Origin: Shewanella polaris
GTDB lineage: Bacteria > Pseudomonadota > Gammaproteobacteria > Enterobacterales > Shewanellaceae
NCBI RefSeq assembly: GCF_006385555.1
Contig: NZ_CP041036.1
Span: 3,038,001-3,102,000 of the forward strand
Length of the DNA: 64,000 nucleotides
Direction: 5' to 3'
The translations under genes were made by a program, and so were the position numbers. The notes under the pieces are model-generated. The model did no database searches. It was not told where the DNA came from and saw only the letters and a list, made by a program, of their open reading frames with translations. This document shows, piece after piece, positions 5,315-41,001 of the stretch; position 1 is the stretch's first letter, and every line of letters starts with the position of its first letter.

Positions 5315-8300
5315 CTAATTAAACACGATTTTGACGTTGGTTGAACCAAGCATACTTTCTAGCGCTAGCATTAATTCATCACTAGGGTTCACTCGCCATT
5401 CTTCACCTAACATGATTTTGCCACTGGCTTGTTGTTTGGTGTAGTTAATCACAACAGGCACGGCGCCATTACGCCACGGTGTTAATGTTTGTTCAAAGGT
5501 TTCTAGCCAATCAGGGGTGACATCATCGCCATGAACGTTGATTTCTACCGCTTTGGCAAAGTGACTGCGCGCTTCACCAATTTCAATGATATTGCGCGCG
5601 TTCATGCGATTGCCGCCAGAAAAATCATCAAAGCTGACATCACCTTCACAAATAAGAATGCGATCTTTTTCAAGCATGTGGCCAAACTTTTCAAACGGTT
5701 CGGTAAATAACATCACTTCTAAACGGGCACTTTTATCATCTAACGTGACTAAACCCATTTTTGAGCCACGCTTAGTGATCATGACTCGCGTAGCCACCAC
5801 TAATCCCGCCGCTTTAACGGTTTTACCGCGCTCGGTTGGGTGAATGTCTTTTAAGCGGCCATTAGTGTATTGCTTAAGTTCTTTTAAATACTGGTTGATA
5901 GGATGACCAGTAAGATAAAGCCCTAAGGTTTCACGCTCACCTTCTAGCCAAATTTTATCTGGCCATGGTGTACATTGAACAAAGTTTTGCTTACTGTCTT
6001 CAGGCTCACTATTGAGCAAACCAAACATGTCATGCTGACCAATGGCTTCTGCTTTTGCGTGTTGTGCTGCGGCACTAATAGCCTCTGGCAAGGTTGCCAT
6101 CATTGATGCGCGATGCGGCCCTAACGTGTCTAAGGCGCCCGCTAAAATCAATTTTTCGATCACTCGTTTGTTGAGCTTTTTCAAATCCACACGGGCACAA
6201 AAATCAAATAAGTCGGTAAATGGACTGTCTTTACGTGCTTCTAAAATTGATTCTACAGGGCCTTCACCCACACCTTTAATCGCACCAATACCGTAAACAA
6301 TATTAAGGTCATCATCGACAGTAAATTTAAATAAGCCTTTGTTCACGTCTGGCGGAATTAACGGTAAGCCCATGCGCTCACATTCATCTACCAAGGTGAC
6401 AATTTTATCGGTGTTGTCCATGTCGGCAGACATTACCGCGGCCATAAACTGCGATGGGAAATGGGTTTTTAACCACAGGGTTTGATACGACACCAAAGCA
6501 TAGGCAGCTGAATGCGATTTGTTAAAACCGTAACCAGCAAATTTTTCTACTAAATCGAAGATCTTCATCGACAAGTCGCCATCGATGCCGTTATTAATAG
6601 CCCCTTCTTTAAAGGTGCCACGCTGCTTGGCCATTTCTTCAGGTTTTTTCTTACCCATTGCACGACGCAGCATATCTGCGCCGCCTAGGGTGTAACCTGA
6701 CAATACCTGAGCAATTTGCATCACCTGCTCTTGGTACAAAATAATACCGTAGGTGGGTGCTAGCAGCTCTTTTAAAGACTCATGCTGATATTCAGCATCG
6801 GGATATGAAACTTCTTCACGGCCATGCTTACGCTCAATAAAGTTGTCAACCATGCCTGACTGCAAAGGACCTGGGCGGAACAGTGCTACCAGTGCAATCA
6901 TGTCTTCGAAACAATCAGGTTGCAGACGTTTAATTAAGTCTTTCATACCACGAGATTCGAGCTGGAATACCGCGGTGGTTTCGTAGCGCTGCAATAATCT
7001 AAAACAGGCAGGATCAGCAAGTGGAATAGCTTCGATACGTACGGGTTCTTTACCTTCTTTAATTTGGCGCGGATTAATCATCTGCAACGCCCAATCAATA
7101 ATGGTTAAGGTACGTAAGCCCAAGAAATCGAACTTAACCAAACCCGCAGTTTCTACATCGTTTTTATCAAACTGAGTAACAGGGTTTAAGCCTTCGGCGT
7201 CGCAATATAAAGGCGCGAAATCTGTAATTCGGGTGGGGGCAATTACCACACCACCGGCATGCTTACCCGCGTTACGTGTCACACCTTCTAAACGGCGACA
7301 CATGTCGATAAGCTCTTTAACGTCTTCATCACCGTCATAGGCTTCAGGAAGCGCGGGTTCAACTTCAAAGGCTTTAGCCAATGTCATCCCTGGTTCAGCG
7401 GGGATTAATTTGGTTAGACGTTCAACAAAGCCATATGGATGACCTAATACGCGGCCAACATCTCGTACCACAGCTTTTGCTGCCATGGTACCAAAGGTAA
7501 TAATTTGCGATACCGCTTCACGGCCATAGAGTTCAGCGACATGATCAATTACCTCGTCACGGCGGTCCATACAAAAGTCGACGTCGAAATCGGGCATCGA
7601 TACTCGTTCAGGGTTCAAGAAACGCTCGAACAGTAAGTCATATTCAAGTGGGTCTAAATCAGTAATTTTTAGTGCGTATGCCACTAACGAACCCGCACCA
7701 GAACCACGACCTGGACCGACTGGAATATCGTTGTCTTTACCCCACTGAATAAACTCCATCACAATAAGGAAGTAACCTGGGAAACCCATTTGGTTAATCA
7801 CTTTCAGTTCAATCTCGAGACGTTCGTCATACTCTGGCCGTTTCTCGAGGCGAACTTGCGGATCAGGGAATAAAAATTCGAGACGTTCTTCTAAGCCTTT
7901 TTCTGAGGCAGTAACTAAGAAGTCTTCTATCGATAAATCGCCGGTCGGGAAATTAGGTAAAAAGTATTCATGTAAACGAATAGTGACGTTACAGCGCTTA
8001 GCAATTTCGACACTATTTTGAATGGCCGATGGAATATCGGCAAACAAGGCGATCATCTCGTCTTCGGTGCGCAGGTATTGTTGATCGCTGTAGGTTTTAG
8101 GACGTCGTGGGTCGACTAAGGTAAAACCATCATGAATAGCGACACGAATTTCATGTGCTTCAAAATCATCTTGTTTTAAAAATACCACTTGGTTAGTGGC
8201 GACAACAGGCAACCCTTTTTCCGATGCTAGCTCAACCGCCATGTGCAAATAGCGTTCTTCATGTGCACGACCAGTACGGATAAGCTCTATATAATAACGA

Positions 8301-8791
8301 TCTTCAAAATGTTGTTGATAAAAAGTAATCAGTGACTCAACTTGATGTTGATTGCCTTTTAGTAATGCCTTACCGACGTCACCATCTTTGGCGCCTGAAA
8401 GAATGATCAAACCACGGTTAAATTTGATTAGCCAGTCTTGATCTATCACAACTCTATTATCGACATGTCCACGAAGATAGGCTTCACTGATCAATTGAGT
8501 CAGATTTTGATAGCCCTCGTTATCCATGGCAATAATGGTTAAGGCACAAAATTCTTTCTCAAAACCTGGGGTTTGCACCCAAAAATCGGCACCTACAATG
8601 GGTTTAATACCAGCATTATTACAAGCTCCATAAAACTTTACCAAACCGCAGAAGTTGTTTTGATCGGTTAATGCTATCGCGGCCATCCCCTGATTTTCAG
8701 CGGCGGCAATGATAGGTTTCACTTTGGCAACGCCATCTGACATTGAATAATCACTGTGGACACGCAAATGAACAAAACGAGGATCGGACAT
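5315..8791 (-). CDS. dnaE: DNA polymerase III alpha subunit
   Basis: The replicative polymerase of the holoenzyme, 1158 residues, full length for the proteobacterial DnaE1 type. An N-terminal PHP domain begins at [15 protein letters not shown]. The catalytic palm carries PDFDVDF around residue 400 with its aspartates intact, then the fingers and helix-hairpin-helix region ([14 protein letters not shown]), and a C-terminal OB fold ([21 protein letters not shown]). It follows rnhB in the superoperon after about 110 bases and is followed directly by tilS. Confidence 0.99.
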
Positions 8792-8901
8792 AGATTATTT
8801 TTTCTTCGAAAAAGATGAATGAAACAACACGAAAATGCGGGATTTAGACTAGCAAACTAAGCGACGTTATCCAATGATTAAGTCGTTTAATCTTGGTCTT
8901 A

Positions 8902-9549
8902 TTACAAGGTATCCTGAAGCAAAATACGTTCTGCAACAGGTTTAAAACTTTTACGATGCTCAGGTAACACACCATACAAGGCTAATGCTTCAAAATGTGC
9001 CTTGGTTGGATAACCTTTGTGTTTAGCAAAGCCATATTGTGGATATTGACTGTCTAACGTATCCATCTCTGCATCTCGAGTCACTTTAGCAATAATTGAT
9101 GCGGCGCTGATGGCGGCAACTAATCCATCGCCTTTTATAATTGCATGGCTAGCAATACCAAACTCTGGCACCCGATTACCATCTACCAATACTCGTTCAG
9201 GTAAAATAGATAATCCAGCCACTGCGCGCTGCATTGCCAACATAGTGGCATGCAAAATATTCAGCTCATCAATTTCAGCCGGACTCGCTCGGCCAACACT
9301 CACACTTAACGCATTATCCATAATCTGTTGATACAAAGCATTACGACGTTTTTCACTGAGTTTTTTAGAATCGTTAAGGCCTACTATCGGTTTACTCGGG
9401 TCTAATATCACCGCAGCAGTCACCACATCGCCAACTAATGGACCACGTCCAACTTCATCAACACCAGCAACTTGCCCATGTGAAATAATGGCAACTTGTT
9501 CAGGAGTAATATTTTTTATCACGACGGGTAATGCGTTAATAGAAGTCAT
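8902..9549 (-). CDS. rnhB: Ribonuclease HII
   Basis: It cleaves RNA in RNA-DNA hybrids and starts removal of misincorporated ribonucleotides from DNA. The active site begins with DEVGRG at residues 31-36, followed by [17 protein letters not shown] and the [13 protein letters not shown] helix, all diagnostic of RNase HII. Its 215 residues are normal for the family, with a slightly extended N-terminus. It lies between lpxB and dnaE, 18 bases downstream of lpxB, as in many gammaproteobacteria. Confidence 0.98.
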
Positions 9550-23649: not shown

Positions 23650-23750
23650 ATGTAAGGGGTTAGACCTCCACGCATCCCATGTTTCGACCCTCTAACTTCA
23701 ATAAGAATTAGAAAGCACCCCGAAAAATGTGTCGATACGTGTGTGATTTA
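23650..23750 (-). ncRNA. rpsB mRNA leader (S2 autoregulatory element)
   Basis: Read on the minus strand, the 5' UTR contains in order CACACACGTATCG, a CGGGGTGC box, a variable hairpin, and then CATGGGATGCGTGGAGG followed by TAACCCC. As I recall it, the E. coli rpsB-tsf leader has nearly the same conserved blocks in the same order; in that system free S2 represses translation by binding the leader. GGGGT at the first block can pair with AACCCC at the last. Boundaries are approximate. Confidence 0.85.
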
Positions 23751-23891
23751 GTATTTAAGTTAATTGCCATGTATAATGACCGTCATCTTTTACGGTTTGC
23801 CGAACTTTATGTGAATTCTGCTTATAAAAGCAACAATACGCATCTCGTTAACTCGAACCGTACAACAACAATCTTATACATAACGGCGCGC

Positions 23892-36689: not shown

Positions 36690-37397
36690 TTAAGTTTGTG
36701 GATTGTTGAGGATTTTATAATCGCTGTAGGTAACAGTTTGAACACTGTCGAGTGACCTAAAAATTGCTGCTGTACCCATTATAGTGGTTGATGTATGAGC
36801 TGGCATCACTAATCCCTCAAACACATCAAAACTTAACTCTAATTCAAATTTAGTTAAAGTAACTGAAAACGCAGGATTTAACTCGTCAGTATTTCTGATG
36901 AGAATTTTACGTAAATGCTTGGATGTTTTATCCAAATAAAGCACGCCTGCTAATACGTTATTGTCTAACTCATCAATATTTGGTGTAAACGTAAATGACA
37001 TATTATTGTCATCCTCACCGACAAAAACCAATGTCGACAAATCAATTAAATCAGAAAACGCTAATTCATAGCTAGTTTCGTCTTTATCTTGATGCAAATC
37101 TTGTTGACGTTCTCGGTATTCAGTTAAGCGTTTTTTACCAGGAGTATCACCATTTTCAGACACCAAACTCCAACGTTCAGTTTCAGGTAAGGATGCATTG
37201 AATTGTTCAATACGTGTCATGTCTGGCATCACTGTTTGCTGTGAATACTGCCAAAGCACCTTGGTACCGTCATTATTACTATTGAGATCGCTGAACGCTT
37301 GATCAACCCATTGTTGTGGTTCTTCGCTCACGACTGCATTGGCGTTATAGCAAACGAATGAAAAACCAACCAATAGTGCAACTTTAAACCCTTTCAT
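36690..37397 (-). CDS. Exported protein of unknown function
   Basis: A 235-residue protein with a Sec signal peptide (cleavage about NANA-VV, residue 21). The mature part is acidic and beta-rich and lacks a recognisable catalytic motif; alternating strands such as LAGVLYLDKTSKHLRKILI recall the open-barrel fold of LolA-like or outer-membrane lipoprotein-sorting proteins. The gene is isolated, upstream of a terminator on one side and the csrB-1 RNA on the other. I cannot assign a role. Confidence 0.75.
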   Translation of the reverse strand: MKGFKVALLVGFSFVCYNANAVVSEEPQQWVDQAFSDLNSNNDGTKVLWQYSQQTVMPDMTRIEQFNASLPETERWSLVSENGDTPGKKRLTEYRERQQDLHQDKDETSYELAFSDLIDLSTLVFVGEDDNNMSFTFTPNIDELDNNVLAGVLYLDKTSKHLRKILIRNTDELNPAFSVTLTKFELELSFDVFEGLVMPAHTSTTIMGTAAIFRSLDSVQTVTYSDYKILNNPQT

Positions 37398-37535
37398 GCT
37401 ATCTCCTTATACAATGGTGAGTTAGATATTGTGTACTTTAATGAGGTACTTTAATGAAGTACTCAAACCCTGCACATAGGCACTTTACAATTTGACAACA
37501 TAACCACCATTAGTTCCGCCGATACTGAAAAAAAG

Positions 37536-37946
37536 CCAAAAGAAAGGCCACGACAGTAAATGCCGTGGCCTCTTTGTTTCTTGTTAAGCTTTCCTGCTAT
37601 AACTGTGCTCCCTGCACCATCCATGCGTATCGCTTGCGTCCTGCTCTATCCTTGCTCAATCCTTGATGTTCCATGTACATAAAGTACTTTCCTTCTTACT
37701 CGATTATCCTTTTACCGAGCCTGCTCTATCCTGAGCGTGTCCTTATATCATCCATGAAATTCTTACTTTATCCTGTCGCAAATCATTTGCGTAGAATCTT
37801 GCATCCATTGCACACTATCATCCTGATAATGTTATTAAACTCACTTAATCCGCTATTGCGTCCATTGAGCAAGTCTACTGTTTCATCCTGAAACTCAAAA
37901 TCGTCCATTACGTCCATATACTCATGGTCTTCTAGACCTTTTTACT
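37536..37946 (-). ncRNA. CsrB-family regulatory sRNA, copy 1
   Basis: On the minus strand this 0.4-kb non-coding stretch contains 20 GGA trinucleotides, many in the context CAGGATG, AAGGAT, CATGGATG or AAGGA, spaced about every 15-25 bases and often between short inverted repeats. It ends in a rho-independent terminator (GGCCACG/CGTGGCC, then TTTCTTTT). This is the anatomy of CsrB/CsrC RNAs, which sequester the translational regulator CsrA. A possible promoter (TTGTTT, 16 bases, TATTAC) places the start near 37946, and an 18-bp UvrY-type palindrome lies about 194 bases upstream of that start. Ends are approximate. Confidence 0.88.
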
Positions 37947-37951
37947 ACCTT

Positions 37952-37979
37952 GTAATATTCCCGTCCTAGGAACAAACAA
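37952..37979 (-). promoter_or_regulatory. Possible promoter of csrB copy 1
   Basis: On the minus strand TTGTTT at 37974-37979 and TATTAC at 37952-37957 are separated by 16 bases. The start point this implies, near 37945, gives an RNA of about 410 nt, close to the known size range of CsrB RNAs. Confidence 0.45.
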
Positions 37980-38130: not shown

Positions 38131-38148
38131 TGTGCGATATATCTCACA
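38131..38148. promoter_or_regulatory. UvrY/GacA-type binding palindrome upstream of csrB copy 1
   Basis: TGTGCGATATATCTCACA is an 18-bp near-perfect palindrome (one mismatched pair). It resembles the TGTGAGAGATCTCTTACA site bound by UvrY at E. coli csrB. Its distance of about 194 bases from the inferred start also agrees with the remote position reported for csrB in E. coli. A half-site TGTGAGAGA on the minus strand lies nearer, at about 38032-38040. Confidence 0.7.
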
Positions 38149-38425: not shown

Positions 38426-39691
38426 TTACAAAAAGCTTGAAAACAACATTATATTTAAAATCGTTAGAATTACGGCAATCGATAACAATAGCAGATTCAT
38501 TAATGTTGAATTTTTGTGTTTACCCATCACTTTTTTAGATGACGTCAAATAAATTTGCAAAAAAACGGTAATGGGTAATTGAATACTTAATATCATTTGC
38601 GAGATGATCAGACCTTTAAATGGGTCTGAAATCAAAAAAATAATCAACGTTGAAATGACTAATATCCCGGCTACCCCAATTTTAGTATGTGTGTTTCTGA
38701 TGTTATAAGGTTCTTTAAATAGTCCAGCATAAACGGAGCCACCAGCCATACCGGCGGTAATCGTTGAGGAAATTCCCGCAAACAATAAAGCAATGCCGAA
38801 AACAAGAGCAGCCTTTGAACCAAGCATTGGCGCTAAAAGATGTTGTGCCTGCTCTAACTCGGTAACGACTATCTTTTTATCAAAAAATGCAGCCGCCGCA
38901 AGTATAATCATTGCACTATTAATAGCCCATCCAATAATCATCGATACTAACGTGTCGGTAAATTCATACCTTAATTGCTTTTTAATAACGGCTTCATCTT
39001 CGTTGTTCCATTGCCGACTTTGAATGATTTCTGAATGCAGAAATAAATTATGTGGCATCACAACTGCGCCCAATACAGCCATTACAATCACCATAGAACC
39101 ATTAGGAATACTGACAGTTACCCAACTTGTTAGCGCTTCTGGCCAGTTAATGCTGACAATGCTCATTTCGTATAAAAAAGAAAAACCAATTATCGAAACA
39201 AAACCGATTATCAGTTTTTCAAGCTTGGTGTAAGTGTTTGTGAAGAGCAATACAATAACAATAGCGAGAACAATGACAGAGCCAACGACTATTGGTATAT
39301 CAAAAAGAAGTTTTAGTGCAATTGCACCGCCGAGAATCTCAGCTAACCCGGTCGATATAACCGCGAAAATGCTGGTCAAAAGGATAACTCTAGCTAGATG
39401 AATATTTACGTTTTTCATCGCTGATTCGGCTAAGCAATCCCCAGTGACAATGCCAAGATGCGCAACATTGTGCTGTAGTATAATCAACATCAAAGTCGAT
39501 AATGTCACCATCCACAAAAGTGTGTAGCCAAACATTGATCCAGCGGCAATATTTGAAGCCCAATTACCAGGATCAATAAAACCTACGGTGACCAGCAACC
39601 CCGGTCCCATATACTTCAGCACTTCACTAAACCCATGATTATGTTTGCTTTTATATTCAGGATGCAGTGTAAACAATGACTTGATTTTCAT
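38426..39691 (-). CDS. Nramp-family divalent metal transporter
   Basis: A proton-coupled importer of Mn2+ or Fe2+, 421 residues with about eleven membrane helices. The metal-coordinating DPGN in helix 1 (GFIDPGNWASN) and MPHNLFLHS in helix 6 are intact. The methionine of helix 6, thought to favour transition metals over Mg and Ca, is present. The family includes MntH, but this is a divergent branch, so I do not assign that symbol. It lies between two csrB RNA genes on the same strand. No Fur or MntR site was evident. Confidence 0.88.
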   Translation of the reverse strand: MKIKSLFTLHPEYKSKHNHGFSEVLKYMGPGLLVTVGFIDPGNWASNIAAGSMFGYTLLWMVTLSTLMLIILQHNVAHLGIVTGDCLAESAMKNVNIHLARVILLTSIFAVISTGLAEILGGAIALKLLFDIPIVVGSVIVLAIVIVLLFTNTYTKLEKLIIGFVSIIGFSFLYEMSIVSINWPEALTSWVTVSIPNGSMVIVMAVLGAVVMPHNLFLHSEIIQSRQWNNEDEAVIKKQLRYEFTDTLVSMIIGWAINSAMIILAAAAFFDKKIVVTELEQAQHLLAPMLGSKAALVFGIALLFAGISSTITAGMAGGSVYAGLFKEPYNIRNTHTKIGVAGILVISTLIIFLISDPFKGLIISQMILSIQLPITVFLQIYLTSSKKVMGKHKNSTLMNLLLLSIAVILTILNIMLFSSFL

Positions 39692-40371
39692 GAAGATTCT
39701 GGCTGGCCGTGTAATTACTCATTTGAATTAGACTAAACATTTATCTATTCACTCGCTGGAGGTTGATAGATAGACATCATATTATCCTTGGTTTAAAACC
39801 TTATACATTTATTTGATTAACGGTACGCCGTAGAAATAGCATTTAAGTATTTGATAACAATTATAGAAGTAGCAACGTCACACGCTGAAATTCTATTTTA
39901 TATCATTATTTTAGGCAATAATATCGGTAAATAAACTGAGTAGCATACGCTTAACTGATGACAATAGTTCCGTGTAAAAAAGCTATGACAAATGCCCTAA
40001 ACCAGTTAAATAACCTAGAACAATAACAAATAATACCCCTCGAACGAGTAGAAAAACAATAATTCCTGATGATAATCCGTGAAAAAATTCTAAGCTAATG
40101 AATACCTATCCACATTTGAAATAATAAAAATTTGAATTCATAAAGTGGGTACATAAGAGATTGATATAAATAATTTAAAAAGTAAAATTTTGAACGGTGT
40201 TATCAGTACGTTTGTTTCTAAACGGTACATTGCCACTTTAAACAAAAATAATTTTGATCATAAAGCGAGGCTTAAAACATGAGGGAACAACGCAAGCTAG
40301 GTATCAGCCAAATTGTTATGTTGTGAATAGTATTTCGCATAACCCAGCCCCAAAAAACATCCACGTTTGGC
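39692..40371. other. Intergenic stretch with no gene seen
   Basis: About 680 AT-rich bases between the Nramp gene and the csrB-2 terminator. It presumably holds the Nramp promoter. No convincing ORF, riboswitch or RNA was seen; the one sizeable plus-strand frame that begins here runs antisense into csrB-2. Confidence 0.5.
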
Positions 40372-40805
40372 CAGAAAGCAAAAGGGCACAACCTTACATA
40401 ATAAGTTTGTGCCCACTGGCACTTTTGTCAGCAATCCTGCTGATATATTGCTCCCTGCGTCATCCATGTACACCAGCTTCCTGCCGTCCTTTTCCCTGTG
40501 CTCATTTCCTTGTGTTTTTAATGTGGCTTACCATTTAAAAATACTTATGAGTGTCATTCCATTGAACAGTCGCTCCATCAACTGAGGGGTAAATCTGTTC
40601 AATCCGTTGAACCATCCATGCTGCATCCGGCAGTCCTATCCATATATCCTTGTGTCGACAAATTATCGTCTTCACCCATCCTTGATTCGGCTATCCATTT
40701 GCCGAGCTTATGCACTATTTCCTTGAGCGTGTCCTAGTATCATCCTTGATATTCTTAAGCATCATTAGTCTTATTTCTAATCCTAAGAAAACCAACTAAT
40801 GACCC
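40372..40805 (-). ncRNA. CsrB-family regulatory sRNA, copy 2
   Basis: On the minus strand this stretch contains 21 GGA trinucleotides in CsrA-type contexts (CAAGGATGA, CATGGATG, CAGGGAG, AAGGA) with little coding potential. It ends in a terminator hairpin GGGCACAA/TTGTGCCC at 40384-40414 followed by TTTTGCTTT. The first copy lies 2.4 kb away and shares the motif architecture and some blocks, for example AGGACACGCTCA. A palindromic UvrY/GacA box lies about 190 bases upstream of the inferred start. The 5' end near 40805 is estimated. Role by family: CsrA antagonist. Confidence 0.88.
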
Positions 40806-40983
40806 GCTTTCGATAACAATATAGTAACCTAAAAAAGTAATCTTAAAAGTCAGCCAATGCGCTTGAAAAAAATATTTTAGTTTTAAAAAAAACTAAAATA
40901 AACCTAATGTACTGATTGTAATTAATTTAAAATAAATCGCGATGCCAAACACTGACAACTTAAGATAAAATACCTTACATGCT

Positions 40984-41001
40984 TGTAAGATATGTCTTAC
41001 A
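40984..41001. promoter_or_regulatory. UvrY/GacA-type box upstream of csrB copy 2
   Basis: TGTAAGATATGTCTTACA matches the GacA consensus TGTAAG-N6-CTTACA exactly and is palindromic apart from the central bases. It lies between the csrB-2 promoter region and the neighbouring gene stop, about 190 bases before the inferred RNA start. Confidence 0.8.

Follow-up and report, generated by a model that had tools for sequence, protein, structure and literature searches.

The window analyzed here is a stretch of 64,000 nucleotides from Shewanella polaris (NCBI RefSeq assembly GCF_006385555.1, contig NZ_CP041036.1, positions 3,038,001 to 3,102,000 of the forward strand), and all coordinates refer to it unless stated otherwise. 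On its minus strand, the window holds two genes for CsrB-type sponge RNAs, termed U for the copy upstream in transcription and D for its downstream partner, with a metal transporter gene in the gap between them and an open reading frame (ORF) of 235 amino acids beside D (Table 1). Between positions 40372 and 40805, GGA occurs 21 times on the minus strand and not once on the plus strand, and when 434-base stretches were sampled from both strands of the window with a step of 20, all 40 of those with at least 13 GGA motifs fell on U or D. A covariance search run at an E-value threshold matched both copies over the full length of the CsrB family RF00018, U at 40374 to 40688 (46.3 bits, E 1.5e-10) and D at 37534 to 37848 (59.7 bits, E 1.3e-14). 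A preliminary description of this DNA had proposed that U is a CsrB-family small RNA with 21 minus-strand GGA motifs and a terminator, located about 2.4 kb from a second such RNA on the same strand, and these points were borne out, as 2394 bases separate the two GGA islands. The terminator hairpin of U was absent from the output of the simple terminator scanner that listed the one of D. For alignments, U was taken as 40366 to 40811, with a stray GGA lying beyond the terminator, and a plus-strand ORF of 94 amino acids (40254 to 40538) overlaps part of the gene.

Table 1. Features of the sponge RNA locus in the window.
Feature	Position	Strand	Evidence or remark
235-amino-acid ORF beside D	36690..37397	-	Clade marker; part of a block likely exchanged; without Pfam or NCBIfam match
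Gene D, CsrB-type sponge RNA	37534..37970	-	21-22 GGA; transcript ends are estimates
Terminator hairpin of D	37543..37573	-	Terminator scanner
UvrY box of D, TGTGAGATATATCGCACA	38131..38148	-	One departure from TGTRAGN6CTYACA, three from TGTAAGN6CTTACA
Nramp-family metal transporter gene, cargo in the U-D gap	38426..39691	-	PF01566, 352.7 bits
Gene U, CsrB-type sponge RNA	40372..40811	-	21 GGA; transcript ends are estimates
Terminator hairpin of U, then T run	40384..40414	-	Read from the sequence; stem conserved in 11 species
UvrY box of U, perfect TGTAAGN6CTTACA	40984..41001	-	Motif match

Both copies score below the RF00018 gathering score of 71, and at that score Rfam reports no CsrB match in the window. 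Its one match there is a t44 RNA (23659 to 23763, minus strand, 79.7 bits), which exceeds the cut-off. The same shortfall is found for most CsrB RNAs of the genus: RF00018 matches 112 of 117 genomes at E <= 0.001 and exceeds the gathering score in 5 of the 117, and in a second round of 30 genomes, some repeated and some new, 26 had a match at E <= 0.01 and one exceeded the gathering score. Because the RNAs missed in this way include those of G076 (genomes and loci are cited by our own handles), which is taken for S. oneidensis MR-1 and whose RNAs would thus be experimentally known, the gathering score was not treated as defining. In most Shewanella genomes, CsrB will be missing from annotation based on this score. 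A nucleotide search with U as the query was too insensitive, with matches in 6 of 40 genomes, and the covariance family was used instead.

The two RNAs are predicted to fold as expected of sponges that carry GGA in hairpins, with the motifs mostly unpaired or in loops. The mean unpaired probability is 0.73 for GGA compared to 0.44 for all bases in U, and 0.69 compared to 0.41 in D, and none of 60 GGA-preserving shuffles reached this difference for either copy. Folding energies are likewise better than those of shuffles, modestly for U (z -2.61) and with a z of -5.92 for D. When U was aligned across 11 species, GGA was identical in 205 of 210 comparisons versus 1715 of 3060 for other triplets, and in the corresponding alignment of D the counts were 181 of 187 versus 1983 of 2887, with several D sequences lacking the 5' end and at least eight comparisons available for only 16 of the 22 motifs. 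The consensus fold of U contains 80 pairs, 8 of which have changes on both sides, and the covariation term is -1.08 kcal/mol. The conservation of GGA is strong evidence, and the covariation is weak. The block AGGACACGCTCA, previously noted as common to the two copies, is present in each, though at different places (about base 71 of U and base 223 of D), and alignment of U with D confines their likeness to about 66 columns around this block and to a 3' block, CATGGATG..GCAGGGAGCA.

Each gene is preceded by a putative UvrY box, for which the consensus was taken from PMC3171408, starting 219 bases before the first GGA in U and 183 bases before it in D. Across the 4.65-Mb genome, only the box of U matches TGTRAGN6CTYACA exactly; a reversed control pattern, however, occurs twice per strand, and the case for this box therefore rests on its position rather than its rarity. 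The single departure in the box of D is not found in the D boxes of most relatives. In 74 of 86 pairs, neither box departs more than once from TGTRAGN6CTYACA, against a background of 29 of 640 random 420-base stretches from the same loci that contain such a box, some of which may overlap real ones. A promoter scan of the region returned 17 promoter-like sites, no excess over the 17.4 expected from shuffles, and was thus given no weight. The genome has a single CsrA gene and, over the cut-off, a single UvrY gene (409.6 bits, 214 residues, with the stop as its natural end).

For comparison across the genus, the locus was taken from 121 Shewanella genomes out of 129 searched. The 121 exclude G072, which had a match, G094, G108, G117, and G121, which had none, G123, which had weak matches only, and two further genomes. 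This gave 128 loci, the window included, of which 101 had both flanks and 27 were set aside; among the latter are both halves of the split loci in G041, G046, G067, G093, G128, G130, and G142, as well as G127, for which no island was called. Two GGA islands are present in 86 of the 101 loci with both flanks, one in 14, and three in one, and the conserved site of the same-strand pair lies between a DUF3301 gene and Mpo1-like/GNAT genes, as it does in the window. Copies at the same position align better than those at opposite positions in 92% of 3655 genome pairs (74% in the most diverged fifth). The U copies of the window and G076 barely align (score 43), and their orthology thus rests on position. 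G157, which belongs to a different genus of the family, shares these neighbors and has two islands, with 14 and 18 GGA, and poorer boxes, with two and three departures. Given the two copies at 86 of 101 loci and the two islands in this sister genus, the duplication predates the genus, in agreement with the earlier suggestion that it is old, and the sponge pair is a feature of the whole genus at one conserved site rather than an oddity of one strain.

Several loci deserve separate mention. In G133 (L223), U and D hardly differ (alignment score of 995, the mean being 75), pointing to gene conversion or a recent duplication. G059 (L083) has three sponge islands at the locus rather than two. The downstream copy of G122 (L119) is the largest island called, with 83 GGA in 1046 bases (the median is 25 GGA), and other GGA-rich islands are found in G081 (62), G110 (57), G073 (55), and G003 (54). 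In the single-contig genomes G041 (L065/L066), G142 (L232/L233), and G130 (L122/L123), the copies lie 1.0-1.7 Mb apart (~1.7 Mb in G041 and G142), so rearrangements also break the pair.

The transporter between the copies has a different history. Its protein scores over the cut-off of NF037982 and below that of the MntH subfamily model NF001923. Relatives at E <= 1e-30 are found in 13 of 127 genomes of the genus, its own included, the best outside its own being 34% identical, whereas a species-genome scan reaching close relatives only recovered proteins 87% identical in an uncultured Psychromonas and 86% identical in Pseudoalteromonas sp. TB64. The gene was thus acquired laterally. It is a local insert and a bystander, with no visible role in the sponge system. 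The only repeat found bounding the insert is a 10-base A+T-rich match, and hence there is no target-site duplication or mobile-element end, while the donor segment is untraceable, since the similarity of the Psychromonas and Pseudoalteromonas DNA to the window is limited to the transporter gene.

Other species carry different genes in this gap. With an enlarged junction defined as a distance more than 1 kb over the median, and the clade defined as the loci carrying the 235-amino-acid ORF, 8 of 10 clade loci have an enlarged U-D gap, versus 1 of 76 others (G076). None of the other eight junctions is enlarged in the clade, and the junction between the DUF3301 gene and D is enlarged in 5 of the 76 others. 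In the clade, however, this junction holds the 235-amino-acid ORF and measures ~0.8-1.07 kb, compared to a median of 161 bases, placing it just below the threshold, so the contrast with the U-D gap is not clean. The eight loaded clade gaps hold seven different cargo sets: the Nramp transporter in the window; a Gfo/Idh/MocA oxidoreductase in G101, with a piece shared by G041, where the locus is split and the piece adjoins D; a formate/nitrite transporter with CBS domains, a LuxR-type protein, a THAP4-like protein, and MsrA in G064; a carbonic anhydrase and MsrA in G138; two GGDEF proteins in both G071 and G111; a LysR-type protein and a short-chain-dehydrogenase-like protein in G083; and an HD-domain protein in G141. 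The U-D gaps of G114 and G119 are without any ORF of at least 100 amino acids. The direction of the cargo relative to the sponge RNAs differs between species.

The two loci with the same cargo, G071 and G111, are 97-100% identical over the cassette and 63-91%, mostly 70-85%, over its surroundings, with identity rising inside U (80, 92, and 95%) and dropping inside D (95, 91, and 86%). This is the pattern expected after a recent exchange by homologous recombination, with its ends apparently inside the sponge genes, although these ends cannot be placed to the base because the sponge genes are themselves conserved. Within the ORF beside D, window positions 36751 to 37250 are 97-98% identical to G141, compared to 68-88% for other tiles, and this block is likely the product of horizontal exchange as well. 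Since both RNA genes are conserved and each would have its own promoter and terminator, the DNA between them could be replaced by homologous recombination without harm. It may therefore be that the sponge genes serve as the homology arms of a natural cassette-exchange site, and that, in one Shewanella clade, laterally acquired genes now settle in a duplicated regulatory-RNA locus, a reading to which we give even chances. One clear exchange is no rule. Searches of the open literature for the U-D gap as a hotspot, or for this arrangement, returned only the papers cited here, and no report of the variable cargo came to light. This cargo of the clade is the only new point here, a modest observation, and the gap can serve as a test case for a site of gene exchange bounded by small-RNA genes.

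These data must be weighed against other explanations for the arrangement. The cargo genes could be old genes of the clade that were lost differentially rather than gained or exchanged, and the 795-base piece with MsrA shared by G064 and G138 (82% identical) and the oxidoreductase piece shared by G101 and G041 (88%) would fit such a history. We nonetheless consider it unlikely for the cargo as a whole, given that the transporter is at most 34% identical to anything in the other searched genomes of the genus and 86-87% identical to proteins of other genera, and that the nearly identical cassette of G071 and G111 sits amid far more divergent surroundings. The transporter might also belong to the system, its position having been selected, for example, to couple metal uptake to CsrA. 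Its direction of transcription does match that of the two sponges, but a terminator lies between U and the transporter gene, and the gap of other species holds unrelated genes in either direction, or none, leaving this the most improbable of the explanations considered.

A further alternative is that only one copy still works, U or D having become a decaying relic after the insertion of the transporter gene. The departure in the UvrY box of D in this genome points in this direction, as do the 14 of 101 loci with a single copy, which imply that loss is tolerated. However, GGA is conserved at 97-98% in both copies across the clade, the copies in the window hold 21-22 of them, terminators are present in both, and both fold better than shuffles. 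A relic is thus very unlikely, and U is very probably a genuine sponge gene maintained by selection.

The observations made here comprise motifs, structure, conservation, boxes, synteny, the cassette exchange, and the presence of genes for CsrA and UvrY. We conclude with high confidence that U and D are CsrB-type sponge genes, predicted to be UvrY-driven and CsrA-sequestering, that have been kept as old duplicates, and that the transporter is unrelated cargo in a gap with gene turnover, to which recombination has contributed at least once. By analogy with S. oneidensis, from which we infer the transcription of U and D, their control by UvrY, and their action on CsrA, BarA would phosphorylate UvrY, which would bind the box ~180-220 bases before the first GGA and switch on U and D, each from its own promoter. 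With ~21 GGA sites each, mostly in loops or otherwise unpaired, the RNAs would then bind CsrA and keep it from its targets, so that CsrA-controlled mRNAs are released. The pair would stem from a duplication older than the genus, with selection keeping both copies, while genes would come and go in the U-D gap of the clade, helped at least once by recombination that appears to end inside the RNA genes.

U is a member of a known, published Shewanella pair; Kulkarni et al. 2006 is cited for the first prediction. In PMC3171408 (2011), csrB1 (420 bp) and csrB2 (421 bp) of S. oneidensis MR-1 flank SO_1616, a 1203-bp transposase gene, both give signals in northern blots, and uvrY and barA mutants lose both RNAs more than 100-fold. 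The notion that no pair with this arrangement had been reported is thus contradicted by that source, which covers csrB1 and csrB2, their northern blots, their UvrY dependence, and the gene between them. The same paper describes csrB2 as 3-10 times more abundant, the double csrB mutant as growing like the uvrY mutant, and the two csrB genes of S. putrefaciens CN-32 and like species as adjacent, unlike those of MR-1, while PMC11045786 reports that either S. oneidensis csrB RNA in trans restores siderophore synthesis of the double mutant. The proposal that two copies raise sponge dosage is plausible, but these published data (PMC3171408, PMC11045786) speak of redundancy and of unequal and differently timed expression. 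G076 is taken for MR-1 or a near relative because it has a 1203-base Mutator-family transposase ORF between its two islands, and, provided that the MR-1 locus tags rise with coordinates, csrB1 probably corresponds to U and csrB2 to D.

The MR-1 pair and the window pair are very probably at the same site, and both consist of two CsrB-type genes, each with a UvrY box, and a gene inserted between them. They differ in that the insert is a transposase in MR-1 and an Nramp transporter in the window. With the wider CsrB/RsmB family RF00018, U and D share a full-length match, many GGA in loops, and a terminator, but like most Shewanella copies they fall below the gathering score. CsrB copies in tandem are also found in G031 (L281, another family of the order), where five matches ~0.7 kb apart, all over Rfam's cut-off, span positions 5864 to 8935 of that locus; this array has five copies, and the genes that flank the pair in Shewanella were not detected there. 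Vibrio, too, has several sponges belonging to one family, with csrB1-csrB4 described for V. tasmaniensis in PMC11882849; the Shewanella pair, for its part, sits at one conserved site.
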